Under the pieces are notes generated by a model. That model searched no databases and was not told the DNA's origin. It saw only the letters and a program-made list of their open reading frames with translations. A DNA stretch of 51,952 bases, from positions 1 to 51,952 of IMG/VR virus record IMGVR_UViG_3300025645_004784. One strand, given 5' to 3'. This document shows, one piece after another, positions 13,314-35,056 of the stretch (position 1 is the stretch's first letter; each line of letters begins with the position of its first letter). The stretch comes from a virus. The translations under genes and the position numbers were made by a program.

Positions 13314-14327
13314 ATGGCAGAATTTATTGATATTCAATTTGCTCAGATGCTTTCTGGTCGTCTTGATCACTTCAAAATAAAACATACAAATCCTTACAAA
13401 ATCAACTTTCGTTGTCCTATCTGTGGCGATTCTCAAAAGAATCGTTCAAAGGCTCGTGGTTGGTTGTTAGAGCGTGATAACAAGTTCTCATATTACTGCC
13501 ACAATTGTGGTGCAAGCCATAGCTTCAATCACTTTCTTAAAACAGTTGACCCTCTATTATATAATGATTATATTGCTGAAAAGTTTGTAGCAAACACAAC
13601 TGTTAGAGATACCAAGAAAGAACAGCCAGTTGAGCAATTTAAAACTAGAGCTCCTGTGTTCAGTAAAGATCCCCTCAAAAAACTCAAAAAGATTAGTCAG
13701 TTAGCATACGATCATCCTATAAAGAAGTATATTAATAAACGAATGATACCTACTAATCATCACTATCGCTTATTCTATGCTCGTCACTTTATGACATGGA
13801 TTAACGAGATTATTCCAAACAAGTTTGATCCAGCAAAAATCGGCAAAGATGAACCAAGATTAGTAATACCTTTCTTAGATGAAAACGGTAAAGTCTTTGG
13901 TGTGTCTGCGCGTGGTTTTAATCCTAAGGGAATCAGATATATAACTATTATGTTTGATGAAAGACCAAAGATCTTTGGTCTAGATAAAGTTAACTTAGAT
14001 CATCCGTATTATATCGTTGAAGGTGCTATCGATAGTATGTTCCTTGAAAATGCTATCTCTATGAATGGCGCTGAAGGCAACGGCAACTCTGCAAATGAAA
14101 ACGCAATTTATGTGTTTGATTCAGAACCCCGCAACAAAGAAATACACAAGCGTATGGAAAAAGTAATAAAGAATGGTTACAAAATTTGTATATGGCCTGA
14201 GAACCTACCAGGTAAAGATATTAACGAACTGCACTTGGCTGGATTAAATGTAGAAAAGCTAATTGAAGACCACGTATATCAAGGCTTGCAGGCAGAATTA
14301 AAATTTACATCATGGAGAAAAACTTGA
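13314..14327 (+). CDS. DNA primase, T4 gp61-like
   Basis: 337 residues. An N-terminal zinc-binding domain (about residues 30-72) has CPICGDS and then YYCHNCGASH, the CHC2-type template-recognition finger. A TOPRIM-like part follows with YYIVEGAIDSMFLENAISM (conserved Glu) and NAIYVFDSEPRN (acidic metal site). It makes RNA primers for lagging-strand synthesis. I chose ATG 13314; a TTG 24 bases upstream lies at the likely transcription start and is unlikely. Ribosome site is weak. It overlaps DHFR by 16 bases. Confidence 0.85.
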   Translation: MAEFIDIQFAQMLSGRLDHFKIKHTNPYKINFRCPICGDSQKNRSKARGWLLERDNKFSYYCHNCGASHSFNHFLKTVDPLLYNDYIAEKFVANTTVRDTKKEQPVEQFKTRAPVFSKDPLKKLKKISQLAYDHPIKKYINKRMIPTNHHYRLFYARHFMTWINEIIPNKFDPAKIGKDEPRLVIPFLDENGKVFGVSARGFNPKGIRYITIMFDERPKIFGLDKVNLDHPYYIVEGAIDSMFLENAISMNGAEGNGNSANENAIYVFDSEPRNKEIHKRMEKVIKNGYKICIWPENLPGKDINELHLAGLNVEKLIEDHVYQGLQAELKFTSWRKT

Positions 14328-14809
14328 TTAGAGCTATATTAGCACATGACGCAAACTGGGGAATTGGTAAAAACGGTGATTTACCTTGGCCAAAAAATAA
14401 CGAAGATTTAAAATGGTTTAAAGAAACTACATCTGGCGATGTAGTAATTATGGGCCGTAATACTTGGGATAGTCTACCGTTTAAACCTCTGCCTAATAGA
14501 ACTAATGTTATTGTAACAACACAAGACATTAAAGGCGCGCTAGGTAATATTGTGGTAGATATGAGAAGTTTGTTAAAGATCCTGCCGCAAATAAAATTTG
14601 CAAATAAAGATATTTGGGTTATTGGCGGCGCTCAATTAGTTGAAGGGATGATGCCTTATATTGACGAACTCTGGCTGAATAACGTTCAAGGTGATTATAA
14701 CTGCGATACTTTCCTGCCAAAAGAACAAATCACGGAGCAATTTTCTGCCGCATCTTGGGAAGTAAAAAGCTTTGGAACAATCACAAAATGGATTAAAAAC
14801 GATGTATGA
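14312..14809 (+). CDS. folA: Dihydrofolate reductase
   Basis: 165 residues. Family landmarks in order: ILAHDANWGIGKNGDLPWP (folate/NADPH site, with the acidic residue region following), DVVIMGRNTWDSLPFKPLPN (MGRxTWxSLP..PLP), and IWVIGGAQLVEGMMPYIDELWL (second nucleotide-binding glycine pair). It regenerates tetrahydrofolate consumed by the adjacent thymidylate synthase, as in T4. The start could also be TTG 14324, which sits 5 bases after GGAGA and overlaps the primase TGA; I keep the ATG. Confidence 0.93.
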   Translation: MEKNLIRAILAHDANWGIGKNGDLPWPKNNEDLKWFKETTSGDVVIMGRNTWDSLPFKPLPNRTNVIVTTQDIKGALGNIVVDMRSLLKILPQIKFANKDIWVIGGAQLVEGMMPYIDELWLNNVQGDYNCDTFLPKEQITEQFSAASWEVKSFGTITKWIKNDV

Positions 14810-15671
14810 TTACGAAAGATTACTACGTGTTATTATGGAGTCAGGCGAAGATGTAAATGACCGTACCGGAACTGGTACACGTTCTATTTTTGGTCATCAA
14901 ATGCGGTTTGACTTGAGAGAAGGATTTCCTGCTGTAACTACAAAGAAGCTTGCATGGAAATCTGTTGTCGGAGAGCTATTGTGGTTCCTCGAAGGTAGTA
15001 CTGATGAACGCAGATTAGCTGAGCTTACATATGGTAAACATCGGTCTGTGCTTGAAGATAAAAAAACTATTTGGACTGACAATGCTGATAACCAAGGTGT
15101 TGCATTAGGATATCCAAATAACCGGTTCTATAAAGAACTTGGTCCAGTCTACGGTGCTCAATGGCGTGACTTTAATGGACAAGGATTTGATCAAATTGAG
15201 TGGCTTATTAATGAAATTAAATCAAACCCAGATAGCAGACGACTAATCCTTAATGCATGGAATCCTAATCAGATAGATAAAATGGCGCTTCCGCCGTGTC
15301 ACGTTATGTCTCAATTTAGAGTATACAGCGGAAAGTTAAGTTGCCAGATGTACCAAAGAAGTGCAGATGTATTTCTTGGTGTACCATTTAATATTGCATC
15401 ATATGCTCTCCTTACACATATTATTGCACGCGAGTGTGGTTTAGAAGTAGGCGAGTTAGTCCATACTATTGGAGATGCTCATATTTACAGTAACCATTTT
15501 GATCAAGTAAACGAGCAATTATCGCGTACTAGCTTTGCGGCACCAACATTAAACATTGATGAATCATTTGAACTTTTATTTATTAATGAATATACTAATG
15601 ATACAGTTAGTAAATTTACATTGACAAATTATCTTCACCATGATACAATTAAAGCTAAGATGGCAATATAA
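14802..15671 (+). CDS. thyA: Thymidylate synthase
   Basis: 289 residues. DRTGTGTRSIFGHQMRFDL (folate and phosphate-binding Arg), the ELLWFLEGSTD segment, GPVYGAQWRDF, and MALPPCHVMSQFRV with the catalytic Cys are all present, followed by QRSADVFLGVPFNIASYALL and HIYSNHFDQV. It converts dUMP to dTMP with methylene-THF. ATG 14802 overlaps the DHFR stop (ATGTATGA), so the pair is translationally coupled. Length is normal for the family. Confidence 0.96.
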   Translation: MYDYERLLRVIMESGEDVNDRTGTGTRSIFGHQMRFDLREGFPAVTTKKLAWKSVVGELLWFLEGSTDERRLAELTYGKHRSVLEDKKTIWTDNADNQGVALGYPNNRFYKELGPVYGAQWRDFNGQGFDQIEWLINEIKSNPDSRRLILNAWNPNQIDKMALPPCHVMSQFRVYSGKLSCQMYQRSADVFLGVPFNIASYALLTHIIARECGLEVGELVHTIGDAHIYSNHFDQVNEQLSRTSFAAPTLNIDESFELLFINEYTNDTVSKFTLTNYLHHDTIKAKMAI

Positions 15672-15674
15672 ATA
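15667..15674 (+). promoter_or_regulatory. TATAAATA motif overlapping the thyA stop
   Basis: Exact late-promoter motif 42 bases before nrdA. Ribonucleotide reductase is not usually a late gene, and the motif is short in an AT-rich genome, so it may be chance or allow late top-up transcription. Confidence 0.3.
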
Positions 15675-15715
15675 ATGAACCAGATCAAGATCGATTATAT
15701 TATAAAGGAAGAAGC

Positions 15716-18013
15716 ATGATTCAAGTTACCAAACGAGATGGTCTAAAAGAACCATTGAACGTTGAAAAGCTTCACAAAGTGGTTTTCCACGCATGTGAAG
15801 GTATTACCGGCGTTAGCCCAAGCGAAGTTGAAATTAGTAGTCAGATTCAGTTTTATAACGGTATGAAAACTTCTGAAATCCAAGAGACTCTAATTAAAGC
15901 TGCAGCTGATCTTATTAATGAAGACACGCCAAACTATCAATTTGTTGGTGGCCGTCTAATTAACTACGCGTTGCGTAAAGAAGTATATGATGGATACGAA
16001 CCAATTCATGTCCTCGAGTTAGTAAAGAAAAATATTCAACGTGGCTTTTATGATCAAGAACTCATTTCATATTATACTGAAGAAGAGTGGGATAAGATCA
16101 ATGGTTTCATTAAGCATGACCGTGACGAAAGTCTAACTTATGTAGCAATGGAACAACTACGTGGTAAGTATCTTGTGCAGAACCGTGTTACTGGCGAGAT
16201 ATTTGAAACACCTCAAATGTGTTATATTCTTATTGCATCTGTATTGTTTCATAAGTACCCAGAAGAAACTAGACTGCAATACGTAAAGGATTATTACGAT
16301 GCTATTTCTCTACACGACATTAGCTTGCCAACTCCTGTTATGGCCGGTGTTCGTACGCCACAACGTCAGTTCAGTAGTTGTGTTCTCATTGAAACTGGCG
16401 ATTCTCTTGACAGCATTAGCGCTACTGCATCTGCCGTTGTAAAATATGTAAGTCAAAAAGCTGGTATTGGTATTGGCGCAGGGTCAATTCGTGCAGTTGG
16501 TACTCCTATTCGTAAAGGTGACGCATATCATACCGGTGTTATTCCTTTCTATAAGCACTTCCAAACAGCGATTAAATCATGTTCGCAAGGTGGTGTTCGT
16601 GGTGGAGCTGGTACAATTTATTATCCTATTTGGCATTATGAAGCAGAAGATCTTCTTGTACTAAAAAACAACAAAGGTACTGAAGATAACCGCGTTCGTC
16701 ATATGGATTATGGTGTACAGTTTAATAAGTTGATGTACGAGCGTCTAATTACTGGTGGCGATATCACATTGTTTTCACCAAGCGATGTTCCAGGCCTATA
16801 CGACGCGTTCTATGCAGATCAAGATAAGTTCCGTGAACTGTATGAAAAAGCAGAACGTAATACAAAGCTACGTAAGAAAACACTCAAGGCTGCAGCGTTG
16901 TTTAGTTCGTTTATGGATGAGCGTAAAAACACTGGTCGTATCTATCTGCAGAACGTAGATAATGCAAACGATCATGGTTCATTCCTGCCTGATCTTGCTC
17001 CTATTCGTCAAAGTAACTTGTGCGCAGAAATTACATTGCCAACTAAGCCTTTGAATGATATTAACGATCCTGAAGGTGAAATTAGTCTATGTACTCTTTC
17101 TGCTATTAACTGGGGTAACGTTAAATCACCAGCTGATTTTGAAAAAGCATGTACACTAGCAGTTCGTGGATTAGATGCTTTGCTAAGTTACCAGAATTAT
17201 CCAGTTCTTGCTGCACAACTGTCTACAGAGAAGCGTAGACCTATCGGAGTGGGCATTATTAACTTTGCTTATTGGATGGCAAAGCATGACCTAAGCTATC
17301 AGGATATCACTCCAGAGGGCTTAGAGTTGATTGATGAGTACGCTGAATCATGGTCTTATTATCTTATTAAAGCTTCAGCTGATCTAGCTATTGAGCAAGG
17401 CAATATCTCAGGTGCTTCTGAAACTAAATATGGCCAAGGCATTACACCTAATCAAACATATAAGAAAGATCTTGACGAGTTGGTCAAGCATAAAGAACGT
17501 ATGGATTGGAAAGGCCTTCGCAAGCAACTGAAAGAAACGGGTATTCGTAACTCTACTCTTATGGCTCTGATGCCTTCTGAAACCTCTGCACAGGTCGCTA
17601 ACGCTACTAATGGTATTGAACCACCCCGTAGTCTTATAAGTGTCAAGCAGAGTAAGCACGGAGTTCTCAAGCAGGTTGTACCTGAATACCGTCGTCTTAA
17701 AAATAAATATGATTTATTGTGGGATCAAAAGTCTCCTGAAGGTTACTTAAAGATTATGGCAGTATTGCAGAAGTATATCGATCAAGGTATCTCAGTTAAT
17801 ACGAGCTATAATCCAGTATTCTTTGAAGATGAAAAGATTCCAATGAGCGTTCTATTACAGCATTTGTTAATGTTTTATAAGTACGGCGGAAAGCAATTGT
17901 ATTACTTTAATACATTCGATGGTCAAGGTGAAATTGATACTGATAAAATGACTGAAGAGCAATTAGCTCTAGGCGAATTAGATGACGAAGATTGCGAGTC
18001 GTGCACAATTTAA
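15716..18013 (+). CDS. nrdA: Ribonucleoside-diphosphate reductase alpha subunit, class Ia
   Basis: 765 residues, full length. The N-terminal ATP-cone region starts IQVTKRDGLKEPLNVEKLHK. Catalytic core motifs include RQFSSCVLIETGDSLDSIS (first active-site Cys), RQSNLCAEITLP (radical-site Cys), SLCTLSAINW and the NSTLMALMPSETSAQVANAT loop. The C-terminus DDEDCESCTI supplies the redox-active Cys pair that glutaredoxin re-reduces. It makes dNDPs with NrdB, whose own promoter follows. No intein or split is seen, unlike some T4-like phages. Ribosome site AAAGGAAGAAGC. Confidence 0.97.
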   Translation: MIQVTKRDGLKEPLNVEKLHKVVFHACEGITGVSPSEVEISSQIQFYNGMKTSEIQETLIKAAADLINEDTPNYQFVGGRLINYALRKEVYDGYEPIHVLELVKKNIQRGFYDQELISYYTEEEWDKINGFIKHDRDESLTYVAMEQLRGKYLVQNRVTGEIFETPQMCYILIASVLFHKYPEETRLQYVKDYYDAISLHDISLPTPVMAGVRTPQRQFSSCVLIETGDSLDSISATASAVVKYVSQKAGIGIGAGSIRAVGTPIRKGDAYHTGVIPFYKHFQTAIKSCSQGGVRGGAGTIYYPIWHYEAEDLLVLKNNKGTEDNRVRHMDYGVQFNKLMYERLITGGDITLFSPSDVPGLYDAFYADQDKFRELYEKAERNTKLRKKTLKAAALFSSFMDERKNTGRIYLQNVDNANDHGSFLPDLAPIRQSNLCAEITLPTKPLNDINDPEGEISLCTLSAINWGNVKSPADFEKACTLAVRGLDALLSYQNYPVLAAQLSTEKRRPIGVGIINFAYWMAKHDLSYQDITPEGLELIDEYAESWSYYLIKASADLAIEQGNISGASETKYGQGITPNQTYKKDLDELVKHKERMDWKGLRKQLKETGIRNSTLMALMPSETSAQVANATNGIEPPRSLISVKQSKHGVLKQVVPEYRRLKNKYDLLWDQKSPEGYLKIMAVLQKYIDQGISVNTSYNPVFFEDEKIPMSVLLQHLLMFYKYGGKQLYYFNTFDGQGEIDTDKMTEEQLALGELDDEDCESCTI

Positions 18014-18016
18014 AGG

Positions 18017-18045
18017 TTGACATTATCACCTAATAGTGTTAAAAT
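18017..18045 (+). promoter_or_regulatory. Sigma70 promoter for nrdB-ALAS unit
   Basis: TTGACA, 17-base spacer, TAAAAT (11/12 consensus), starting 4 bases after the nrdA stop and 35 bases before nrdB. Confidence 0.8.
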
Positions 18046-18079
18046 AAAAAAGAACAAGAAATTACACAAGGAAATTTAG

Positions 18080-19207
18080 ATGAGCGTTTTTGATGTCCAA
18101 AACCGCGTTGACCATACCTCAGTTGCTTCCTTTTTGGATCCAACTGGGGGACCAACAATTCAGCGTTATGACACACTCAAGTATAAGCAGTTTGATCAAC
18201 TTACCGATAAACAGCTTGGATTCTTTTGGCGGCCAGAAGAAGTAGATATCTACCAAGATGCAAAAGATTTTAAAGCTCTTACTGAGCATGAACAACACAT
18301 CTTTACTTCAAATCTGAAGCGACAAATTCTTCTAGATAGTGTACAAGGTCGAGCACCAGCAGAAAGCTTTGGATCTATTGTTTCATTGCCCGAACTTGAA
18401 AACTGGATTATCACTTGGACATTCTCCGAGACGATCCATAGTCGTTCTTACACTCATATCATTCGTAACATCTATTCAAATCCATCTAAGATTTTTGATG
18501 AGATGCTGGATGTTAAAGAGATTGCAGATTGTGCTGGGTCTATCTCAGGTTACTATGACGCTCTTATTGAGATGGCTGGCTACTATAACCTATTGGGTGT
18601 TGGTACACATACAGTTAACGGCAAAAAAGTAGTAGTTGATCTATATCAATTAAAGAAACTTTTGTATCTTTGCTTGATGAGTGTTAATATTCTTGAAGGT
18701 GTTCGTTTTTATGTTTCGTTTGCATGCTCTTGGGCATTTGCAGAATTGAAGAAGATGGAGGGTAATGCTAAAATCATTAAGCTTATTGCTCGTGATGAAA
18801 ACCTCCACCTTGCTTCTACTCAAATGATGCTTAAGTTGCTTAAACAAGAAGATAAAGACTTTGTAAAGATTGAAGAAGAAACACGCGAAGAATGTACTCA
18901 AATGTTTGTTGATGCAGTAGATCAAGAAAAACAGTGGGCAAAATATCTATTCAAAGATGGATCTATGATTGGTTTGAATACAGAGTTGCTTTCACAATAT
19001 ATCGAGTTCATTGCAACTCGTCGTATGACTAATGTAAAACTCACTTCACCTTATAGTATTAAAAGTAATCCGCTGCCTTGGACCCAAAAATGGATCTCTG
19101 GTGCTGATGTTCAAGTGGCTCCACAAGAAACAGAAATTACTTCTTATGTTCAAGGTGGCACAAAACAAGATGTATCATCTGATACATTCAAGGGGTTCTC
19201 ACTGTAA
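18080..19207 (+). CDS. nrdB: Ribonucleoside-diphosphate reductase beta subunit, class Ia
   Basis: 375 residues. The di-iron ligands appear in order: the Asp/Glu of the [11 protein letters not shown] region, then [18 protein letters not shown] (E..H), then [15 protein letters not shown] (E..H). The radical Tyr lies in the first helix-pair region. It houses the tyrosyl radical that drives NrdA. The TAATG overlap couples it to the ALAS gene, so an iron enzyme and the first heme-pathway enzyme are made from one message. Confidence 0.95.
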
Positions 19208-20397
19208 TGTATGAAGAATATTTTGAACAAACAATAAAAGATTTTTGCGTAGATGGTCGTTATAGAGTATTCAATGATATTCTTAGAGAACGTGGATCTT
19301 TCCCAGAAGCTATATGGTATGGTAAATATGCGCCAAAGAACATTGTTAATTGGTGTTCAAACGATTATCTTGGTATGGGCCAAAACGAATATGTAGTAAG
19401 CGCCATGCATACAGCATTAGATCAATCTGGTTCTGGTTCTGGCGGTACTCGAAATATTGGTGGAACATCACAGTATCACGTAACACTAGAACGAGAACTT
19501 GCTAGTTTACATTCTAAGCCTGCATCGTTACTTTTCACAAGTGCTTATGTTGCTAACGAATGGTCTCTTATTGCGTTGAGCAAAATTATTCCAAATATTT
19601 GTTTTATTTCTGACAGTAAAAATCATGCTTCGTTGATTGTTGGTATGTCGCATAGTCGGGCTACTAAAAAGATTTTTAAACATAATAATCTAGATGATTT
19701 AGAAGCACAACTCAAAGCCGCAGTAAAGGCAAAACACATTCCTTGTATTGTATTTGAGTCTGTTTATTCTATGGATGGTGATATTAGTCCGATGGAAGCT
19801 ATCTGTGATCTTGCAGATAAATATGACGCAATTACTTATATTGATGAAGTCCACGCTGTTGGTCTATACGGTGAACAAGGTGCGGGTTGGTGCGAAAAGT
19901 TAGGTTTAACAGATAGGATTGATATTATCAATGGTACACTCGGCAAAGCATTCGGGGTACAAGGTGGCTATATTGTCGGTAACACTAATATCATTGACTC
20001 TATTAGGTGTGTTGCTAGCGGGTTTATATTCACGACATCAACAAGCCCAGTCATTTGTGCCGGAGCCTTGGCATCTATCAGATATCTCCGTGATCATCCT
20101 CAACTAAGAGATAAGCACCAAGAACGAACTACAAAACTAAAAGAAATGCTAGCTGAAGCTGGTATACCAATACACAAAACCGCATGTACACACATAGTAC
20201 CAGTAATGGTTAATGACGCGTTTAAGTGCAAAACTGCAAGTGATCGTCTTTTAAATGAATACGGTATATATATTCAGGCAATCAATGCGCCAACCGTAGA
20301 AGCAGGTACAGAAAGATTAAGAATAGCACCTACGCCGTTTCATGATGATATTATGATGATACAGCTTGTTGAAGCATTAAAAGAGGTATTGAAATGA
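19207..20397 (+). CDS. hemA: 5-Aminolevulinate synthase (Shemin pathway)
   Basis: 396 residues, full length. Condenses glycine and succinyl-CoA to 5-aminolevulinate, the first step of tetrapyrrole synthesis in Alphaproteobacteria. It follows Rhodobacter HemA block for block: GRYRVF near the N-terminus, [67 protein letters not shown], and [18 protein letters not shown] with the PLP-binding Lys 247. The GRYR and SGSGGTRNI(G/S)GT blocks favour ALAS over its relatives BioF and KBL. It ends [12 protein letters not shown] like the host enzyme. Coupled to nrdB upstream and DUF454 downstream. Confidence 0.95.
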
Positions 20398-20447
20398 ATC
20401 AACTTCAAAATGCATATTTTGCTAGATTTAAACAAAAGGAAATTATT

Positions 20448-20867
20448 ATGAATAAAATTAAAAGAGCGTTTTGGTTTACACTAGGAATTATCTTGGTAGG
20501 AGTAGCTTATCTTGGAGTCATTCTTCCAGGCTTACCTTGGAGTACTCCAATTCTTGGGGCAACGTTTTGCTTTGCAAAATCAAGTCCAAGATTCCACGCT
20601 TGGATTATGAATCACCCGCGATTTGGTCCATTCATTAAAGAGTGGAGTAAATATCGAGTGTATCCAACTCCAGCAAAGTATCTAATGGTTGCGGTAATGT
20701 CTACATCACTTGTGGTCTTTTTCCTTACTCTTGCAAACGTAAAAGCTACCATTTATATGGCTATTACTTTTGCGTTAATTATCGTTTGGGCTACTCGCTA
20801 TCCTGGTTCAAAAGCAGAAGCTGAACGAAGAATCGATGCTGGTGAAAAGATTGGTTGGCTAAAGTAA
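20448..20867 (+). CDS. DUF454 (YbaN-like) small membrane protein
   Basis: 139 residues from ATG 20448. RAFWFTLGIILVGVAYLGVI, LPGLPWSTPILGATFCFAKS and SPRFHAWIMNHPRFGPFIKE are the DUF454 signature, and two more hydrophobic segments follow (about 85-125), giving three or four membrane helices. Start choice: 20448 has AAAAGGAAA upstream and coincides with the usual family start. An in-frame ATG at 20394 overlaps the ALAS stop (ATGA) and would add 18 residues. Function of the family is unknown to me; being locked behind ALAS suggests a link to tetrapyrroles, which is inference. Confidence 0.8.
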   Translation: MNKIKRAFWFTLGIILVGVAYLGVILPGLPWSTPILGATFCFAKSSPRFHAWIMNHPRFGPFIKEWSKYRVYPTPAKYLMVAVMSTSLVVFFLTLANVKATIYMAITFALIIVWATRYPGSKAEAERRIDAGEKIGWLK

Positions 20868-20882
20868 ATAAATAAACTCAAC

Positions 20883-20903
20883 AACCCTTCGATGTGGAGG
20901 GTT
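20883..20903 (+). terminator. Hairpin, probable terminator of the nrdB-ALAS unit
   Basis: AACCCTTC pairs with GGAGGGTT (8 bp, one T-G) around GATGT, followed by only a short T run (TTTAT). It lies right after the DUF454 stop. Confidence 0.55.
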
Positions 20904-20942
20904 TATAAACACTTACACAATGTTATTGATGACGGAGATATA

Positions 20943-21968
20943 ATGGCTAAGAAAATCCTAATTACCGGTGGCGGTGGTTTCATTGCACACCATCTGATCA
21001 ACCAAGTACTCAAAAGAACTGATTGGGAAATTGTTACTGTAGATCGATTAGATTACAGCGGCAACCTCAATCGTTTGCATGATCTTCTTCAAGAAAGAAC
21101 CCCAGAAGAACGTAAGCGTCTTCGTACTATTTTCCACGATCTAAAAGCAGAATTCAATCCAATGCTTGTTGCAGATATCGGCGACGTTGATATTGTTGCA
21201 CACTTAGCAGCTGGATCACACGTTGATAGGTCAATTGACTTTCCAATGGAATTTGTAATGGATAACGTTGTTGGTACATGTAACATTTTAGAATTTGCAC
21301 GTAAGCAACCAAACTTAGAACGTTTCCTATATTTCTCAACTGACGAAGTATTTGGTCCTGCGCCAGAAGGTGTTAACTACGACGAGTACGATCGTTACAA
21401 TTCTACCAATCCTTATTCTGCTTCTAAAGCAGGCGCAGAAGAACTTTGCGTAGCATATCAAAATACATATAATATGCCTATCTATATTACGCATACAATG
21501 AATGTGTTTGGTGAACGTCAACATCCTGAGAAGTTTATTCCTATGACTATCCGTAATGTACGTGATGGTGGTATGGTAACAATTCACTCTGATGAGACTA
21601 AAACAATCGCTGGTTCACGTCATTATATTCACGCTGAAGATGTTGCAGACGCCACTTTGTTCTTGCTTGAGCACGAAGGTACACTAAATGTTACAAATAA
21701 CAATGGCGTTAAGTGTCCTAAGTTTAACATCTGCGGTGCTACTGAGTTATCTAACTTAGAGTTAGCACAAATGATTGCTGATGCACAAGGTAAAGAATTA
21801 AAGTATCAAATGCAAGATTTCCATTCTTCACGTCCGGGTCACGATCTACGATATGCTCTTAGTGGTGAACGTATGAAACAAATGGGATGGGAGCCAACTG
21901 CTGTACAACAACGTATTGCTGAAGTAGTTAAATGGACATTAGAAAATAGAAGGTGGTTAGACATATGA
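20943..21968 (+). CDS. NAD-dependent sugar-nucleotide epimerase/dehydratase (dTDP-glucose 4,6-dehydratase-like)
   Basis: 341 residues. An extended short-chain dehydrogenase: ILITGGGGFIAHHLINQVL (NAD-binding GxxGxxI), HLAAGSHVDRSIDFP, FLYFSTDEVFGPAPEG (the TDE motif typical of RmlB), and NPYSASKAGAEELC with the YxxxK catalytic pair. RmlB makes dTDP-4-keto-6-deoxyglucose. TDEVFG, HVDRSI and the YSASKAG block point to the RmlB group, but the sugar is not proven. ATG 20943 follows GGAGATATA; an upstream in-frame codon at 20892 falls inside the terminator. ATGA overlap with the next gene. Confidence 0.88.
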   Translation: MAKKILITGGGGFIAHHLINQVLKRTDWEIVTVDRLDYSGNLNRLHDLLQERTPEERKRLRTIFHDLKAEFNPMLVADIGDVDIVAHLAAGSHVDRSIDFPMEFVMDNVVGTCNILEFARKQPNLERFLYFSTDEVFGPAPEGVNYDEYDRYNSTNPYSASKAGAEELCVAYQNTYNMPIYITHTMNVFGERQHPEKFIPMTIRNVRDGGMVTIHSDETKTIAGSRHYIHAEDVADATLFLLEHEGTLNVTNNNGVKCPKFNICGATELSNLELAQMIADAQGKELKYQMQDFHSSRPGHDLRYALSGERMKQMGWEPTAVQQRIAEVVKWTLENRRWLDI

Positions 21969-22552
21969 ATATGAAAGATTTTGAAAGAATCATTGAAAAA
22001 GAATACCAAGACGAATTGAATAATCCGTCTGATATTAATGAACATGTGCATGACTTGCTCACACTAGCCTTAGACTGCACACATGTTACTGAGTTTGGTA
22101 GTAGGTTTGGTTCTAGTACAAAGGCCTTTCTGAAGGCTCCTGTGACCCTTAGAGCATACGATCTGGAAATTCATAATCCTCTTATGAACCTATTTAAAAT
22201 GGCTCGTAAGGTCGGTAAAGATGTAGAATATGAAAAGGGTAATACTCTTAGTCTTCTTATTGAACCAACTGATATGATCTTTATTGATACTTGGCATTCA
22301 CAAAGGCAATTACGTGATGAACTAAAGCTTCACGGTAATGCTGCCCGCAAGTATCTTGCTTTCCATGATACACACACTTATGGTGTACGTGATGAACAAG
22401 CAGATTGGGCTAAAAATCCCGATCGTAAAGCTATGGCTGGTCAAGGATTACTTCCAGCGATTATTGATTTTGTAATTGCAAATCCTCATTGGAAGTTCAG
22501 GACGCATAAGACAAATAATAATGGATTAACTGTTTTGGAAAGAAGAGGCTAA
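21965..22552 (+). CDS. Methyltransferase-like protein (Methyltransf_24/CmcI-like)
   Basis: 195 residues from the ATG overlapping the previous TGA; GAAGGTGG lies upstream, and an in-frame ATG two codons later is possible. THVTEFGSRFGSSTKAFLKA is a SAM-binding motif I, then LRAYDLE (acidic strand 2), DMIFIDTWHSQRQLRDEL and KYLAFHDTHTYG, which resemble the CmcI/cephalosporin hydroxylase-like methyltransferase group. It sits between a sugar-nucleotide enzyme and a GT17-sulfotransferase fusion, so a sugar or glycolipid substrate is likely. Activity not provable from sequence. Confidence 0.7.
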   Translation: MNMKDFERIIEKEYQDELNNPSDINEHVHDLLTLALDCTHVTEFGSRFGSSTKAFLKAPVTLRAYDLEIHNPLMNLFKMARKVGKDVEYEKGNTLSLLIEPTDMIFIDTWHSQRQLRDELKLHGNAARKYLAFHDTHTYGVRDEQADWAKNPDRKAMAGQGLLPAIIDFVIANPHWKFRTHKTNNNGLTVLERRG

Positions 22553-22553
22553 T

Positions 22554-24143
22554 ATGCAAGTTGTAGATTGTTTTCCTTGGTTTGCTCCCTACGGAGAAGA
22601 ACTACTTTATCTGCGTGTAAATCTGTTAAAAGACCACGTAGATAAATTCATTATTGTTGAATCAAATAAGACTCATGCTGGTCATCCCGTGGAACGAAAG
22701 TTCCCGGAGGTGGCTCGCAAGCTTGGTCTGCCTATAGAAAAGATTATCTATATTGAACATGATATTCCTGAGACCGAAGATCTGGAAATTCTAGATATAG
22801 ATCGAAGGAATGCTGGTAATAACGCTAGTAATAAAGATTCGCTACTAGCGCGTGTTCGTGAACGTTTACAAAAAGACGCTGTGATGATGGCATTGCGAGA
22901 TTTTGAAAAGCGCGATGTGTTTATTTACGGTGATGCTGATGAAATCATTGATCCAAAACATATTAAGTGGTTAGCAAAACAAGCTCACAATCATCCTAAT
23001 ATTATTGTTAAAGTTCCATTAGTATATCTTCAAGGTAGAGCTGATTTACGAATCCATCATAAAGATGGCCGGGCCGTTATTTGGAAGCGAGCTATGTTTA
23101 TAGCTACCAAAGAGCAAATTCAGCATTGCAAAATCAGTAACATTCGTTGCGGCAATATTAATATACCAATTCGGTTTCCAACTCAAGACGGTATTGTGCA
23201 AGAAGATATGGGTTGGCATTTTGCTTGGATGGGCAGCAATGCTCAACGTCAAACAAAGGCAGAATCTTTTGCTCATGCTTTTGATAGCTTTAAATGGCAT
23301 ACTGAAGGCGGTTACGCAGACTATAAGCAATTCGTAGATACTACAGAACCTGTTGAAGGTAACATTGCTCCTGATAGTAATGAAGATCATATTCTTAAAA
23401 GATATCCACATGATAGTCTTCCTAAACTAATTTTCGAATCTCCTTTAGTTAAAGAGTTCTTATTACCAGAAGTTAAGCTTGATTCAAATCACGTGTTTAA
23501 TGATTGCAATTGTTATTGGTGCCAAAAATTAGAATGGCCTTTATTATATGACCTAGAAAATAATCATGAGAAGCTTTGGTTTGAAGTTCCACGCAGTTGT
23601 TCTGTAACCATTAAAGAAAGCTTTCCATCGCGTATTCAAGTAATGCGTGATACTAGATTGTATAACCGTTTCGTTGAAGAAAAGAAAAAGCCTATCATGA
23701 TATTTACAGATCCAATCGATCGATTCATTTCGTTGATTAATGTGTACCTTACTGATAAGCAACGTTACTCTGACTACGGTAAAGACATCTTTAGTACCTT
23801 TGACAAAGATATAACTCAGCTGACAAAGCAAGAAAAGATTGATTTGTTTTTTGCTAATCTTAATAAGATTACGTCTGGGCACCAGGTCCATCACTTCCAT
23901 CCACAATGCCGGTTTGTTGATACTGAAAGCTTTGAGGATATAGAAGTTGTACGTCGTGAAGATGTTAATAAGTACTTTGGTATAGATCAAATGCATAATG
24001 TAACTAAGAAAGACATTACTGCTGCAGATTTTTCTGAAGAACAAATTGACTTCATTGAGAGAGCATACGTTAGCGATTACGCATTCTTAGAAAAATATGG
24101 TGTGAAAAATGGCAAAGCTAAAAGTAAACGAAAGAACAGTTGA
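22554..24143 (+). CDS. Fusion: GT17-like glycosyltransferase plus sulfotransferase-like domain
   Basis: 529 residues. Residues ~1-280 resemble glycosyltransferase family 17: VVDCFPWFAPYGEELLYLRV, DKFIIVESNKTHAGHPVERK, and FIYGDADEIIDPKHIKWLA containing the DAD metal motif. A short Cys-rich linker (DCNCYWCQKLEWP) follows at ~325. Residues ~335-520 look like a Sulfotransfer_2-type domain: WFEVPRSCSVTIKESF occupies the PAPS-loop position, MIFTDPIDRFISLINVYL has the RDP..R-like motif (here TDPIDR), and VHHFHPQCRFVD follows. One polypeptide might add and sulfate a sugar. The first Arg of the RDP motif is Thr, so sulfotransferase activity is less sure. Confidence 0.7.
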   Translation: MQVVDCFPWFAPYGEELLYLRVNLLKDHVDKFIIVESNKTHAGHPVERKFPEVARKLGLPIEKIIYIEHDIPETEDLEILDIDRRNAGNNASNKDSLLARVRERLQKDAVMMALRDFEKRDVFIYGDADEIIDPKHIKWLAKQAHNHPNIIVKVPLVYLQGRADLRIHHKDGRAVIWKRAMFIATKEQIQHCKISNIRCGNINIPIRFPTQDGIVQEDMGWHFAWMGSNAQRQTKAESFAHAFDSFKWHTEGGYADYKQFVDTTEPVEGNIAPDSNEDHILKRYPHDSLPKLIFESPLVKEFLLPEVKLDSNHVFNDCNCYWCQKLEWPLLYDLENNHEKLWFEVPRSCSVTIKESFPSRIQVMRDTRLYNRFVEEKKKPIMIFTDPIDRFISLINVYLTDKQRYSDYGKDIFSTFDKDITQLTKQEKIDLFFANLNKITSGHQVHHFHPQCRFVDTESFEDIEVVRREDVNKYFGIDQMHNVTKKDITAADFSEEQIDFIERAYVSDYAFLEKYGVKNGKAKSKRKNS

Positions 24144-24348
24144 AGCTCTTCAGCTAGAAATCGATCATCATAAGAAAGAGAAAGCTTATGTCCTCAGAGA
24201 GAACGATTCTCTGAGGGCTGATCGCATGATGCTCCTTGAGATGCTTTCTGACTTAACTGAAAACGAAAGTTACTGGGCAGAAGATGTAGCAACAAAAACT
24301 ACAGTTTGGCGTCTAAAAAACTTGCTAAATAACCTAAAAAGTAGTTGA
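24109..24348 (+). CDS. Small coiled-coil protein, unknown function
   Basis: 79 residues, overlapping the preceding gene by 35 bases. It is almost entirely helical and charged (LQLEIDHHKKEKAYVLREND) with heptad-like spacing. The TGA stop is inside the -35 box of the next promoter. No family recognised. Confidence 0.55.
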   Translation: MAKLKVNERTVEALQLEIDHHKKEKAYVLRENDSLRADRMMLLEMLSDLTENESYWAEDVATKTTVWRLKNLLNNLKSS

Positions 24349-24373
24349 CATTATTCCTTAACTAACTTATAAT
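24345..24373 (+). promoter_or_regulatory. Sigma70 promoter for the wall hydrolase-hemE-hemF-hemC unit
   Basis: TTGACA, 17-base spacer, TATAAT, a perfect consensus. The upstream TGA lies in the -35. Its -10 region (AACTAACTTATAATA) and leader (TATAAGAAATGAGGAAG at 24379-24395) recur exactly at 41770-41890. Confidence 0.88.
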
Positions 24374-24399
24374 ATTATTATAAGAAATGAGGAAGATAC

Positions 24400-24909
24400 A
24401 TGTTGATTAATATACTCAGTACTATCCTAACCGGTACTATGATTATTGGTACCGCGTTTACTCCAATTTACGCAAATCAAGCTATGCGCACTACGCAATT
24501 TGTGCAAGCAAATGAAGCTGAGGCTCAATGCTTAGCTCTTAATGTTTATTACGAAGCTCGTAGTAGTAATTTAGCAGATAAAGCTGGTGTTGCGGATGTA
24601 GTTTTAAATCGTGTAGCAGACCGCCGTTACCCTGATACGATCTGCGACGTAGTACAAGACGGTTATAAGTCAGGCCGAAAAGATTGTCAATTTTCTTGGT
24701 ATTGCGATGGAAAGCCGGATGTACCTGTAGATTTAGACCGCTGGTTTGAAGCTCAGACCGTAGCATATAATATGATCGAGTTTAAAGAATATCGAGGTAT
24801 TTCTGAAGGTGCAACACATTATCATGCAACATATGTAAATCCATTCTGGGCATCTTCTTTGCGCATGGTTGGTCGCATTGGTGAGCATATTTACTACCGT
24901 TGGGAATAG
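24400..24909 (+). CDS. Secreted cell-wall hydrolase (SleB/Hydrolase_2-like)
   Basis: 169 residues. The first ~25 are a signal sequence (LSTILTGTMIIGTAFTPIYA) with a probable cleavage site after YANQA. The rest is a Hydrolase_2 (SleB/CwlJ) domain: ALNVYYEARSSNLADKAGVA with the catalytic Glu, VVLNRVADRRYPDTICDVV, CQFSWYCDG and GATHYHATYVNPFW. It would act on peptidoglycan in the periplasm without a holin. It is the first gene of the hemE unit under a strong early-type promoter, unusual for a wall hydrolase and in addition to the GH19 lysin. Start follows GAGGAAGATAC. Confidence 0.85.
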   Translation: MLINILSTILTGTMIIGTAFTPIYANQAMRTTQFVQANEAEAQCLALNVYYEARSSNLADKAGVADVVLNRVADRRYPDTICDVVQDGYKSGRKDCQFSWYCDGKPDVPVDLDRWFEAQTVAYNMIEFKEYRGISEGATHYHATYVNPFWASSLRMVGRIGEHIYYRWE

Positions 24910-24921
24910 AGGAAGTTAGAA

Positions 24922-25902
24922 ATGGACGCAAATAAATTTACTAATGCTGTTAATCGAGTAGAGCAGTCGTGTCCTCCTATTTGGATGATGAGACAAGCTG
25001 GTCGTTATCAGCCTTCGTATATGGAAATAAAAGAATCATACAACTTTGAGCAGATGTGTAAACTACCACAGATCGCTTCTAAAGTTGCTATGTTGCCAAT
25101 TAATGATTTTGACTTTGATGCTGCTATATTGTTTAGTGACATTCTTTGGCATGTCGAAGGGCTAGGACTTCCTTTGAAGTTTGATCCAGCCCCTAAGTTT
25201 GAGTTTCATCTTAACGAAGATAATTGGCAAAACCATACTGATGTTGAAAAGGCAATGGATCATCTAGACTTTCAACAAACAGCTATGGCTACTACTCGAG
25301 ATATACTACCAGATCATAAGAGTCTAATTGGATTTGTTGGTGGTCCTTGGAGTGTATTGAATTATGCTCTTGGTGGTAATAAAGTAAGCAATGATTTTAA
25401 GACTACATATCTTACAGAAGTTATTATTCCATTAATGGTTAAAAGTATTAGAGCACAGAAAGTAGCAGGCGCTGATGTCGTAATGATTTTCGATAGTGGT
25501 CTAAGTAATATAAGTAAAGCATATTACGAAAATACATATCTACCAATGCTTGAGCAACTTGCATTGATTGGTAACGTTGGTTATTATTCACGTGATTTAC
25601 CAAAAGGCTCTTTGCCGAAAGTAAAGAAAATGAATTTTGCTGGCATCGGTATTGATTCTACTGAAGATTTAGCTAAAACATTACAGACACATAAGAATGG
25701 TTTTGTTCAAGGTAACTTCAATGAACAGCATATGTTACTAGAAAATAAACTGTATCATTACGAATTAGATAAGTGGCTTGATAGTTTAGATGGAGTTGAT
25801 ACTACTGGTTGGATATGCGGACTCGGTCACGGTATTCATAAGACTACTCCTACTCGTAATATTACATATTTTATTGATACCGTAAGGAATAGATTTGATT
25901 AG
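24922..25902 (+). CDS. hemE: Uroporphyrinogen III decarboxylase
   Basis: 326 residues, slightly shorter than the usual ~345-350. Removes four carboxyl groups from uroporphyrinogen III to give coproporphyrinogen III. The family signature PPIWMMRQAGRYQPSY is at residues 18-33, with substrate Arg 24 and Arg 28. AAILFSDILWHVEGLGLPL holds the catalytic Asp 73. GFVGGPWSVLNYALGG has the substrate Tyr region, and GWICGLGHGIHKTTPTRN gives the C-terminal conserved His. All core residues I can check are kept, so activity is plausible. The start follows GAGGAAGTTAGAA, 12 bases after the wall hydrolase stop. Confidence 0.95.
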   Translation: MDANKFTNAVNRVEQSCPPIWMMRQAGRYQPSYMEIKESYNFEQMCKLPQIASKVAMLPINDFDFDAAILFSDILWHVEGLGLPLKFDPAPKFEFHLNEDNWQNHTDVEKAMDHLDFQQTAMATTRDILPDHKSLIGFVGGPWSVLNYALGGNKVSNDFKTTYLTEVIIPLMVKSIRAQKVAGADVVMIFDSGLSNISKAYYENTYLPMLEQLALIGNVGYYSRDLPKGSLPKVKKMNFAGIGIDSTEDLAKTLQTHKNGFVQGNFNEQHMLLENKLYHYELDKWLDSLDGVDTTGWICGLGHGIHKTTPTRNITYFIDTVRNRFD

Positions 25903-26248
25903 TTATAGCACAAATTGGATGGGTCCTGTTTCTACTCGTTGGTATGAGGAAAGGGACATACCGTTTGTATTGAAGAAAACATCAGGGAAGATATTACCAG
26001 TAGTAGAGTATAAAGACTTTTTAGAAAGCTATTCTTGTGGTCGTATCGACATCTATGGACTAGATGATGATACATACTGGTGCGGCAAATCAGAATATGG
26101 TGTTGCTCCTATGCGTACAGAAGACTGGAATGCCTTTGGTGATTGGTTGGACAATATAGAAGATGAAAGTCTGATTACATATGAAGAACTGATACGTCAA
26201 TTCGAAGAACACTATGGCAACAAGATAAGGTGGATTGATAATGTTTAA
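25895..26248 (+). CDS. Conserved marine phage protein, unknown function
   Basis: 117 residues, TTG start with AAGGA 7 bases upstream, overlapping hemE by 8 bases; ATG 25919 is an alternative. It starts ISYSTNWMGPVSTRWYEER and contains SCGRIDIYG and APMRTEDWNAFGDWLD. I recall relatives standing alone in T4-like marine phages, so it is probably a generic phage gene caught between hemE and hemF, not a tetrapyrrole enzyme. It is too short and unlike HemD. Confidence 0.7.
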   Translation: MISYSTNWMGPVSTRWYEERDIPFVLKKTSGKILPVVEYKDFLESYSCGRIDIYGLDDDTYWCGKSEYGVAPMRTEDWNAFGDWLDNIEDESLITYEELIRQFEEHYGNKIRWIDNV

Positions 26249-27026
26249 TGAATACGCTAAGTGGTTTAAAACCCTCCAAGATGAAATTTGTAGTACTATA
26301 GAAGATATAGATAGCAAAATGGAAAGCCACGAGCCCACGGGAAAAGAAGGCTGGACACAACGGCATATGACTTTGCGTGGTGATGTGTTTGAGAAAGCAA
26401 CTGTAAACTTCTCTAAGATTGAATCTGAATTTGATCCTTCGTTTGCACACGAAATTCCAGGTACTGAAGAGCACAATAGATATCAGGCTACTGGCATCAG
26501 CGTTGTTCTTCATCCTTGGAACCCGCATGCTCCTGCAATGCATTTTAATACACGTTACTTAAAAACAAGCACTAAAGAATGGTTTGGTGGTGGCATGGAT
26601 GTTACTCCTTGTATGCCATTCAATAAAGAATCATACCATAACGAATTGAAAGATATGTGTAATGGATACGATTCAGAGTATTATTCTGATTTTAGTAAAG
26701 CGTGTGATAAGTATTTCTATTTGCCACATCGTAAAGAAACGCGTGGCGTAGGCGGTCTGTTTTTTGAATACCACGATCCAAAGGATATGAGCTTTGATTT
26801 TGTAAAAGATGTTGGTAATACATTTAATGATTTAATACGATCTATTGTTACTCCTACGTTAGAGATGAATTACTCTCAAGCAGATAGAGAAATGTTAGAA
26901 ATTAAACGTGGACGATATGTTGAGTTTAATCTATTATATGATAGAGGAACTCGTTTTGGTTTTAAAACAGGAGGTAACATGGATGCGATTCTAATGAGTC
27001 TTCCACCAACGGTGAGATGGTCATGA
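26241..27026 (+). CDS. hemF: Oxygen-dependent coproporphyrinogen III oxidase
   Basis: 261 residues (E. coli HemF ~299). Converts coproporphyrinogen III to protoporphyrinogen IX using O2. Family blocks in order: NPHAPAMHFNTRYL with the conserved His, WFGGGMDVTPCMPF, FYLPHRKETRGVGGLFFEY, GRYVEFNLLYDRGTRFGF, and the end MDAILMSLPPTVRW. ATG 26241 is 7 bases after AAGGTGG and overlaps the previous gene by 8 bases; the in-frame TTG 26235 is less likely. Use of the aerobic enzyme fits an oxygen-respiring host. Couples to hemC through ATGA. Confidence 0.95.
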   Translation: MFNEYAKWFKTLQDEICSTIEDIDSKMESHEPTGKEGWTQRHMTLRGDVFEKATVNFSKIESEFDPSFAHEIPGTEEHNRYQATGISVVLHPWNPHAPAMHFNTRYLKTSTKEWFGGGMDVTPCMPFNKESYHNELKDMCNGYDSEYYSDFSKACDKYFYLPHRKETRGVGGLFFEYHDPKDMSFDFVKDVGNTFNDLIRSIVTPTLEMNYSQADREMLEIKRGRYVEFNLLYDRGTRFGFKTGGNMDAILMSLPPTVRWS

Positions 27027-27787
27027 TGATTAGAGTAGGAGTTCGAGGTAGTGACTTAGCATTAGCATATGCTAAACGAGCCTGTAATGACTTACGTTCT
27101 TGTAACATAGTATCGTGTGATACTGAAATAGTTGTTATTAAAACATTAGGCGATTTAAACCCCGATGTACCGGTGAGTGAGATTGGTGGTAAAGGTGTAT
27201 TTTGTAGTGCATTAGAATTAGCTTTAGTCAATAATGAAATTGATGTTGCTGTGCATAGTCTAAAAGATATGCCTGGAGATTGGGAACATCCTGATCTAGA
27301 AATTACATCAACACTAAAACGCAATAGCCCATACGATGTAATCATTGGAAAAGTTTTTGACGGTTTTACGTTAGGTACGAGCAGTCCTAGACGCAAAGCT
27401 CAATTAGAAGAATTGTACGCTGGCTACAATGTAAAGATCAAACATATTAGAGGAAACATAGATACTCGTTTAGCGAAGCTTGACGCTGGCGAATATGATG
27501 CTATTGTATTAGCAGAAGCTGGCCTACGCGCTCTTAAAGTTGTTAGATCATATTCTGTGCTACCTATTATTCCAGCAGTTGGTCAAGGTACTATAGCTTT
27601 ACAATGCAGGAAATCAGATCTTGATACTATTGCTATTGTGAAGCTAACTGATCATGATTTAACTCATCGGCAATCTAATTTAGAAAGAGCATTGCTTAAA
27701 GGTGTTATGGGTGATTGTAGTACGTCGATTGCTGCACATGCTGAAGGCGACAATCCAATTAGCATGAGTACAGTTTTCTACAAATAA
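27023..27787 (+). CDS. hemC: Hydroxymethylbilane synthase (porphobilinogen deaminase), C-terminally short
   Basis: 254 residues against ~310 for the family. Polymerises four porphobilinogens to hydroxymethylbilane. Present: IRVGVRGSDLALAYAKRA, EIGGKGVFCSALELAL, VAVHSLKDMPGDW with the catalytic Asp, FTLGTSSPRRKAQLEEL, HIRGNIDTRLAKLDAGEYDA and LAEAGLRAL. The dipyrromethane-binding Cys is Cys 232, in GDCSTS instead of the usual GGC. Only 22 residues follow it (about 70 in E. coli), so domain 3 is cut short. The stop is 3 bases before a promoter. ATG 27023 overlaps the hemF TGA and sits 6 bases from GGTGAG. Confidence 0.92.
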   Translation: MMIRVGVRGSDLALAYAKRACNDLRSCNIVSCDTEIVVIKTLGDLNPDVPVSEIGGKGVFCSALELALVNNEIDVAVHSLKDMPGDWEHPDLEITSTLKRNSPYDVIIGKVFDGFTLGTSSPRRKAQLEELYAGYNVKIKHIRGNIDTRLAKLDAGEYDAIVLAEAGLRALKVVRSYSVLPIIPAVGQGTIALQCRKSDLDTIAIVKLTDHDLTHRQSNLERALLKGVMGDCSTSIAAHAEGDNPISMSTVFYK

Positions 27788-28284: not shown

Positions 28285-28905
28285 GTGACTAAATCTAAGC
28301 AGATAGATATTATGGATATGTTTAAACCACCAGTAAGTCAAAACCATAGGATTATTACAAAACAAGCAGTAAACATTCACGAGTTTTATTTAAGCGGAGA
28401 GATTGAATCATCGGAAGATTATATCGAATGGTTTGATACTATTCGTAGTGCAAATCAAAACGATATTTTAAAATTCTATATTAATTCACCAGGCGGTGAT
28501 CTTTTCACAGCTATCCAATTTATGCGAGTACTAAAAGAGAGTGAAGGTACTATTTCAGTATCAGTAGAAGGTGCTTGTATGAGTGCTGCTACTTTAATCT
28601 TCTTGCAAGGCCATCAGTTTGAAGTATCACCTCACTCGATGTTTATGTTCCACAACTATTCGAGTGGTGTAGTGGGTAAAGGCGGTGAAATGTATGATCG
28701 TCTAGCACACGAAAAAGACTGGTCTGAAAAGCTTCTTCGAGATGTATATTCAGATTTCTTAACTGAAAAAGAAATTACATCTATTCTAAACAGCAAAGAT
28801 ATCTGGATGGACGGTGATGAAGTTGTTAAGCGTCTGAGAAAGAAAGTAAAAGCTATGGAAAAAGCCCAAGCTAAATTAGAAAAAGAAGAAACCGAAGAAG
28901 AATAA
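28285..28905 (+). CDS. ClpP-like serine protease
   Basis: 206 residues, GTG start after AAGGAGAAATATTAA. A ClpP/crotonase fold: FYINSPGGDLFTAIQFMRVL (oxyanion Gly-Gly), VEGACMSAATLIFLQ with the nucleophile Ser, SPHSMFMFHNYSSG with the His, and KDIWMDGDEV giving a candidate Asp. Related genes occur in T4-like marine phages. It may act on phage or host proteins, or in capsid processing, but this late-head location is not seen: it lies among early-promoter genes. The last ~25 residues are a charged Lys/Glu tail. Confidence 0.85.
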   Translation: MTKSKQIDIMDMFKPPVSQNHRIITKQAVNIHEFYLSGEIESSEDYIEWFDTIRSANQNDILKFYINSPGGDLFTAIQFMRVLKESEGTISVSVEGACMSAATLIFLQGHQFEVSPHSMFMFHNYSSGVVGKGGEMYDRLAHEKDWSEKLLRDVYSDFLTEKEITSILNSKDIWMDGDEVVKRLRKKVKAMEKAQAKLEKEETEEE

Positions 28906-35046: not shown

Positions 35047-35056
35047 CAAGGAAAAC

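Follow-up and report, generated by a model that had tools for sequence, protein, structure and literature searches.

A recurrent heme-directed gene set in T4-superfamily phages extends the known phage tetrapyrrole genes

A 2024 report (PMC11480375; statements on this and all other cited papers refer to the parts of them that were covered) described phage 5-aminolevulinate synthase (ALAS), either by itself or accompanied by heme oxygenase and bilin reductase; it shows one such phage ALAS to work (that is, to form 5-aminolevulinate) and calls it enigmatic that these two other enzymes occur alongside ALAS in phages. Coproporphyrinogen oxidase and porphobilinogen deaminase were named in 2020, together with GMP reductase, in one sentence on the pelagimyophage PMP-MAVG-4 (PMC7029224), ferrochelatase was reported from pelagipodophages in 2022 (PMC9599517), and viral alaS and/or ahbD appear among environmental genes (PMC13390420, PMC9301287); heme terms had no match in PMC9004378. 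Here we analyse the IMG/VR virus record IMGVR_UViG_3300025645_004784, a fragment of a phage genome of 51,952 bases (the window, that is, the whole stretch of DNA that was analysed), which encodes ALAS, uroporphyrinogen decarboxylase (HemE), oxygen-dependent coproporphyrinogen III oxidase (HemF) and hydroxymethylbilane synthase (HemC).

These genes belong to a recurrent heme-directed gene set that is larger than was reported in an earlier reading of the window made from its letters alone (the sequence-only reading), and that extends the known phage tetrapyrrole genes. We consider it probable (roughly 60%) that T4-superfamily phages, most likely with Alphaproteobacteria as hosts, have these genes as an established set by which heme-pathway flux is raised during infection, a reading to which both gene content and evolution appear to lend support.

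With the viral alaS and hemO-pcyA/X cassette (PMC11480375) the set has in common an aquatic-phage ALAS, the loss of heme-inhibition residues and, in some contigs, a link to heme oxygenase and bilin reductase. It differs in adding HemE, HemF and HemC, and in that heme oxygenase and bilin reductase were not found in the window; the main text of that report, as far as covered, contains no hemF, hemC, coproporphyrinogen or DUF454, and uroporphyrinogen only in a pathway legend. PMP-MAVG-4 shares HemF and HemC in a phage genome, but HemE, HemB and ALAS go unnamed in the main text of that study, and the part covered makes no mention of cassette, tree or residues (PMC7029224). The pelagipodophage ferrochelatase (PMC9599517) is likewise a heme-pathway enzyme of marine phages, yet it belongs to podoviruses and to another step, one found in 0/50 records here. 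Chromosomal hem clusters of marine Alphaproteobacteria (L151, L160 and, in part, L176) also hold ALAS, HemC and HemE close together, with HemF in L151 and L160; they differ in including ferrochelatase and a HemJ-family gene and in a HemC of about 500 amino acids, which suggests a HemC-HemD fusion (Pfam saw the HemC part only), whereas the phage HemC groups elsewhere, with unfused forms. The HemE-HemF-HemC(-HemB) cassette with ALAS, the pairing of ALAS with DUF454 and the HemC change described below were not found in the open-licence literature searched (supplements excluded), which is no proof of their being unpublished; of the four-gene combination, whose earlier report had been left as a question, parts are in print (PMC11480375, PMC7029224).

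Recurrence of the gene set in viral contigs

The four open reading frames (ORFs) are intact (4/4) with the boundaries first assigned to them. They and the genes that accompany them are as follows.

15716–19207, plus strand: nrdA and nrdB, ORFs named by homology; context directly 5' of ALAS, and beside ALAS in close relatives.
19207–20397, plus strand: ALAS, 5-aminolevulinate synthase, 396 amino acids; its start overlaps the last base of nrdB.
20394–20867, plus strand: DUF454 membrane protein, 157 amino acids, start codon uncertain (PF04304, 94 bits); constant partner gene of ALAS.
24922–25902, plus strand: HemE, uroporphyrinogen decarboxylase, 326 amino acids (named by PF01208, active-site residues and tree).
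25895–26248, plus strand: ORF of 117 amino acids between HemE and HemF, overlapping both (phrog_18736, unknown function).
26235–27026, plus strand: HemF, oxygen-dependent coproporphyrinogen III oxidase, 263 amino acids, with a TTG start or an ATG two codons on (NF003727).
27017–27787, plus strand: HemC, hydroxymethylbilane synthase, 256 amino acids, third domain short and R176-equivalent lost (TIGR00212).

Single-protein scans of viral contigs supplied 16 HemE, 39 HemF and 6 HemC loci and the best 80 of 588 ALAS matches, and a HemC profile scan supplied the best 80 of 196 matches; genes were counted in the fetched stretches only, at a minimum of 25% identity over 60 residues and E up to 1e-8, and loci were merged by contig name. 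Among the matches taken, 106 contigs besides the window carry HemE, HemF, HemC or HemB, and 51 of these 106 carry at least two of them, with gene order kept in other viral contigs; intact ORFs, family scores and this recurrence bear out the phage-borne tetrapyrrole module of the sequence-only reading. The arrangements comprise HemC alone in the stretch covered (54 contigs), HemE-HemF-HemC (16), HemF-HemC-HemE-HemB (12), HemE-HemC (12), HemF-HemC-HemE (4), HemF-HemC (3) and others (5), and three of the 106 contigs are the window's own phage from other samples. ALAS, HemE, HemF and HemC occur together in 11 contigs besides the window: eight from the cassette count (one is the window's own phage, two look like one phage and in one ALAS is cut by the stretch end) and the remaining three G037, G044 and G504. 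Contigs 3300002144 and 3300002131 look like one phage, and the residue counts given below (45, 41, 39 and 86 copies) include identical copies of one phage. As most records are short and come without a completeness estimate, absences from them are weak.

That bacterial DNA was wrongly joined to a phage contig, a possibility that the sequence-only reading had raised against itself, is scarcely credible, although the genes are housekeeping enzymes and matches among deposited phages (50,697 records, four tblastn searches) amount to 12, 3, 10 and 21 records, all below 60% identity, which by their record names look like bacterial contamination or, for ALAS, mostly BioF/Kbl relatives. Contigs from other samples are 97–100% identical over the window's hem genes, and the same genes recur in other viral contigs at 46–93% identity, in the same or shuffled order and with the same neighbours, which excludes both chance and misassembly. 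Moreover, the phage clades stand apart from the bacterial sequences used, and T4-type genes lie beside the cassette in another contig (L034). In PHROGs, none of the four window proteins had a match at E 0.001.

ALAS and its DUF454 partner

The window ALAS scores 557 bits against TIGR01821 (equivalog cut-off 338.6), its closest solved structures are ALAS enzymes, and the pyridoxal phosphate (PLP) lysine K247, D213 and H216 are identical in 86/86 phage ALAS (a fragment of 108 amino acids, L044, was excluded from residue counts). In an alignment with R. capsulatus ALAS (2bwn), counted along the alignment, the equivalent of His342 is residue 340, which is His in none of the 86 phage sequences (Lys in 70, Arg in 13, Leu in 3); a Cys lies within the last 12 residues in 3/86, and a CP dipeptide in 0/86. 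This loss of heme-inhibition residues agrees with the description of many viral ALAS without His342 and/or Cys400 (PMC11480375), the same report that bears out the earlier mention of viral ALAS from aquatic phages. The earlier suggestion that the phage enzyme may bypass host control is thus strengthened, given that the residues linked to heme inhibition are missing.

Behind ALAS lies a DUF454 gene that the sequence-only reading did not mention. It stands 3' of ALAS in 61 of the 62 loci with more than 5 kb of downstream sequence, and within 2 kb on the same strand in 75/86 ALAS loci, several of the others ending at a contig edge. An epimerase and a glycosyltransferase occur downstream of ALAS in 38 and 39 of the same 62 loci and a primase upstream in 53/66 loci, and DUF454 is the most constant of the ALAS neighbours tested. 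The positions at which at least 95% of 76 phage copies agree include C59, H68 and H74. We propose that the protein acts at the membrane in the service of ALAS or of heme. Beyond phages DUF454, which has a match in 84/289 Alphaproteobacteria, is weakly linked to heme, because a tblastn search of the flanks of 30 bacterial copies found none of the window's hem genes (a few of these flanks were also read for other genes), and the one copy observed next to a HemY_N gene is the closest bacterial one (L368, 42%), which also lies near a gene for a succinate dehydrogenase subunit. DUF454 is reported as up-regulated under iron restriction in Avibacterium (PMC7970244) and as co-occurring with heme oxygenase in the neighbourhoods of one secretion-system cluster (PMC12282271).

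HemE, HemF and an altered HemC

The window HemF scores 310 bits against NF003727 (cut-off 297), its HAPAMH and WFGGG blocks are readable, and H44, H93, H103, H135 and H165 are identical in 39/39 phage copies. HemE scores 199 bits against PF01208 (gathering threshold 23.9) and 196 bits against TIGR01464, under the cut-off of 303 that serves as a naming threshold; because a bacterial HemE inside a hem cluster (L160) also falls short of it, with 231 bits, we read the shortfall as probable lineage divergence and keep the name on residues and tree. R24, R28, D73, Y148, S192 and H303 are identical in 41/41 phage copies (a fragment of 36 amino acids, L018, was excluded from residue counts), and we take this set (Arg, Arg, Asp, Tyr, Ser/Thr, His) to be the catalytic residues. 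In another viral contig (L264, 10049–10924), a HemE-like match of 30% identity lies about 1 kb after HemC, perhaps a further capture.

HemC scores 236 bits against TIGR00212 (cut-off 164) and 90 bits against the short HemC model NF002202, below its cut-off of 251. R10, K83, D84 (of VHSLKD), R125, R126, R145 and R151 are identical in 45/45 phage copies, and the cofactor Cys234 is present in 44/44 copies that reach that position. The recognisable active sites first described for the four enzymes are therefore present as regards the named ALAS, HemE and HemF residues and blocks and HemC D84, but the HemC cysteine, first numbered 232, is residue 234 when counting starts at 27017, and the equivalent of E. 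coli R176 is lost, an alteration that had gone unmentioned. None of the 45 phage HemC has Arg at this position, which holds Ala in 39 of them, Thr in 4 and Glu in 2, as against Arg in 30/30 bacterial relatives; R176H harms the E. coli enzyme, affecting the steps from ES to ES2 and from ES2 to ES3 (PMC3945110). Domain 3 is partly missing as well: the stretch that runs from the cofactor Cys to the C terminus measures 23 residues in the window and 50 in L029 and L055, compared with 65–77 in the six unfused alphaproteobacterial HemC compared.

Such changes, and the occurrence of HemC alone in about half of the contigs (54/106), could mean that some of the enzymes, HemC above all, have been altered towards another product or towards the binding of intermediates, and no longer carry out the standard reaction. 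We regard this as unlikely, given that the cofactor Cys and D84 are retained together with six further catalytic residues, that HemE and HemF stand alongside, and that dN/dS across five HemC pairs is 0.09–0.14. An AlphaFold2 model of the window HemC (pLDDT 89.4, pTM 0.86) predicts a confident HemC fold, for which ranks 1–32 in Foldseek are all porphobilinogen deaminases (TM-score by query length 0.79–0.86). The phage HemC is taken here, by predicted fold and by score, as a member of its family and as a probably active but altered enzyme.

Origin and selection

In trees that contain some rows with long branches or odd composition, the phage sequences group together: 18 HemF rows lie on one side of a branch (support 100/100), 20 HemC rows on one side of another (100/99), and 16/17 HemE rows form one clade (100/99). 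Sister to this HemE clade (96/91) stand the HemE of L151 and L160, two marine Alphaproteobacteria that carry a hem cluster on the chromosome, and the phage HemC joins unfused alphaproteobacterial HemC (99/96). Since HemC groups with the unfused form and HemE with the hem-cluster form, the cassette looks as if it was assembled from more than one source. The HemE, HemF and HemC trees place the nearest relatives in Alphaproteobacteria, as had been anticipated. Of 385 Alphaproteobacteria, 290 gave a HemF match, the best-scoring one at 51% identity and none above 52% among the matches listed. An additional contig of the PS1 clade (L176, HemE 53% over residues 5–190) was considered as a phage fragment in a single-cell genome and rejected, as it carries the bacterial hem cluster, and it provides no host link.

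The seventeenth HemE row (L034) is 75% identical to Roseovarius HemE and 97% identical to the copy in L035, and sits among Rhodobacterales HemE (100/100). Both copies precede a phage-type HemF-HemC, and T4-type topoisomerase II, SbcCD-like and DNA polymerase genes lie beside the cassette in L034. HemE was thus acquired at least twice by phages, and this second, independent capture beside HemF-HemC argues for selection on its function. The hem genes and DUF454 are under purifying selection, with dN/dS of 0.05–0.30 in 23/23 pairs (the highest, 0.297, at a dS of only 0.10), next to 0.03–0.07 for nrdA and nrdB; many pairs come close to saturation of dS, which has no defined value for the cell-wall hydrolase.

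Remaining steps, from heme to bilin

Relatives of the window phage encode further steps of the pathway. HemB was found in 12/50 records and HemJ in 2/43 (records partly the same as the 50), with 13 and 12 loci, respectively, in the viral scans; heme oxygenase was found in 11/43 records, three of the 11 being ALAS contigs without HemC. Pfam detects both heme oxygenase and bilin reductase in two records (G006, G044) and HemJ in one of these (G006), and tblastn finds heme oxygenase and bilin reductase also in G022, G023, G025, G029 and G500; HemB, HemJ and bilin reductase score above the Pfam cut-offs but below those of NCBIfam, in which the G006 heme oxygenase matches no model. A single contig of 107 kb (G044) holds ALAS, HemB, HemC, HemE, HemF, heme oxygenase and bilin reductase, and another (G006) holds HemE, HemF, HemC, HemJ, heme oxygenase and bilin reductase, with ALAS not found within its 57 kb. 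Ferrochelatase and HemD were each found in 0/50 records, although a divergent HemD might be hidden (the HemD model matched 12/14 control genomes). HemD is poorly conserved in sequence. The window itself had been said to lack HemB, HemD, protoporphyrinogen oxidase and ferrochelatase; HemB, HemD, ferrochelatase and HemJ were indeed not found there, HemG and HemY not having been searched for.

The sequence-only reading left open whether flux to protoporphyrin would serve heme or bacteriochlorophyll. The steps to protoporphyrin are common to both products, and the HemE of one lineage derives from a source like Roseovarius (75% identity), whose group has phototrophs among its members, such that the genes could provide bacteriochlorophyll precursors to aerobic phototrophic hosts (for example, some Rhodobacterales) instead of heme. 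This appears quite unlikely, because relatives carry heme oxygenase (11/43) and bilin reductase, both of which use heme; on the same grounds, heme, and then bilin, is favoured as the destination. A deregulated ALAS (as predicted), later enzymes as far as HemF and the lack of ferrochelatase in the 50 records would also suit a scheme in which the host is flooded with unfinished porphyrins as photosensitisers or iron binders, not supplied with heme. We think this very improbable, as heme oxygenase and HemJ in relatives point beyond protoporphyrin, and harming the host ahead of progeny production would presumably be costly.

Several of these relatives carry other genes of interest. Genes for curli-type CsgG and curlin repeats occur in G044 (L419, 1540–3307), and ORFs resembling them by eye in L420, L421 and L423; as one section of PMC7029224 deals with a curli operon in pelagimyophages, these genes may hint at SAR11-type hosts for the G044 lineage. 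A membrane protein of 319 amino acids lies near hem or HemJ genes in several relatives (L417, 3273–4232; L055, 15592–16551); the L417 copy is weakly like phosphate transporters (PF01384, below cut-off), the L055 copy has no Pfam match, and no match was found in deposited phages.

Gene layout and phage identity

Judged by its replication genes, the window phage is best placed in the T4 superfamily, in line with its first description as T4-like: its gp61-type primase is 44% identical to cyanomyophage gp61, its RNaseH 47% identical to that of Sinorhizobium phage phiM12, and a T4-type ATP-dependent DNA ligase gene is present. Primase and nrdA are annotated as neighbours in cyanomyophages too (records of the primase matches). 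The ALAS stop overlaps the start of the DUF454 ORF, and HemE, the 117-amino-acid ORF (present in some relatives, absent in others), HemF and HemC each overlap the next. As ALAS and HemE are separated by about 4.5 kb that hold an epimerase and a glycosyltransferase (sugar modification), a cell-wall hydrolase and other genes, the region consists of two coupled groups, nrdAB-ALAS-DUF454 and HemE-orf-HemF-HemC, rather than a single operon. No tRNA genes and no Rfam match were found in the window. The motif TATAAATA, which we take to be T4 late-promoter-like, occurs 8 times in the window, with no excess over chance (mean 6.0; 29/100 shuffles as high), and one copy lies at 15667, 5' of nrdA.

Elsewhere in the window, a ClpP-like protease gene (phrog_1827, 28285–28905) lies shortly 3' of the hem cassette and is kept in close relatives, and a protein of 1107 amino acids with collagen-like repeats (PF01391, 44836–48159) is probably a fibre. 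Genes for dihydrofolate reductase, thymidylate synthase, serine hydroxymethyltransferase and S-adenosylmethionine synthetase occupy 14312–18013, 35015–36199 and 37190–38287. Given that serine hydroxymethyltransferase releases glycine, an ALAS substrate, dTMP synthesis by the phage folate genes might feed glycine to ALAS.

Discussion

If the gene set raises heme-pathway flux during infection, the steps can be envisioned as follows. An ALAS without heme-inhibition residues would commit glycine and succinyl-CoA to 5-aminolevulinate, from which host HemB (or, in a sister lineage, phage HemB) would provide porphobilinogen. Phage HemC would polymerise this, host HemD would close the ring, and phage HemE and HemF would take the product past the siroheme/B12 branch to protoporphyrinogen, leaving a host oxidase (in a few relatives, phage HemJ) and host ferrochelatase to finish heme. 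DUF454 may aid ALAS or heme at the membrane. The heme may supply respiratory enzymes during shutdown of host gene expression or, in relatives with heme oxygenase and bilin reductase, may be directed to bilin synthesis.

Several observations weigh against this interpretation. ALAS is present in 8/44 HemC, HemE or HemF records and HemC in 1/30 large ALAS records, and HemC often stands alone, such that a fixed pathway unit is not shown. HemD and ferrochelatase are missing from the records searched, the R176-equivalent and part of domain 3 are missing from HemC, and the window has neither a PF01126 match for heme oxygenase nor a tblastn match to phage heme oxygenase or bilin reductase. More tentatively still, and with less than even confidence, we suggest that T4-superfamily phages jointly hold a near-complete route that starts from glycine and succinyl-CoA and leads by way of heme to bilin (ALAS, HemB, HemC, HemE, HemF, HemJ, heme oxygenase and bilin reductase), in which DUF454 would be a dedicated membrane partner of ALAS, a phage-specific HemC would have been rebuilt (no R176, short domain 3) for different chain handling, and HemD and ferrochelatase would be left to the host.

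If the heme enzymes encoded by part of these genomes act as a supply line, this would offer a testable reason why heme oxygenase and bilin reductase occur with ALAS in phages, namely that the phage feeds its own pigment pathway. The phage HemC represents a natural variant lacking an arginine that chain growth is believed to require, and could be a useful probe of the enzyme. If the interpretation holds, a housekeeping pathway would have been acquired and kept stepwise by viruses of marine bacteria, with a pointer to the function of DUF454, and the gene set suggests that these viruses steer the pigment metabolism of the cells they infect.

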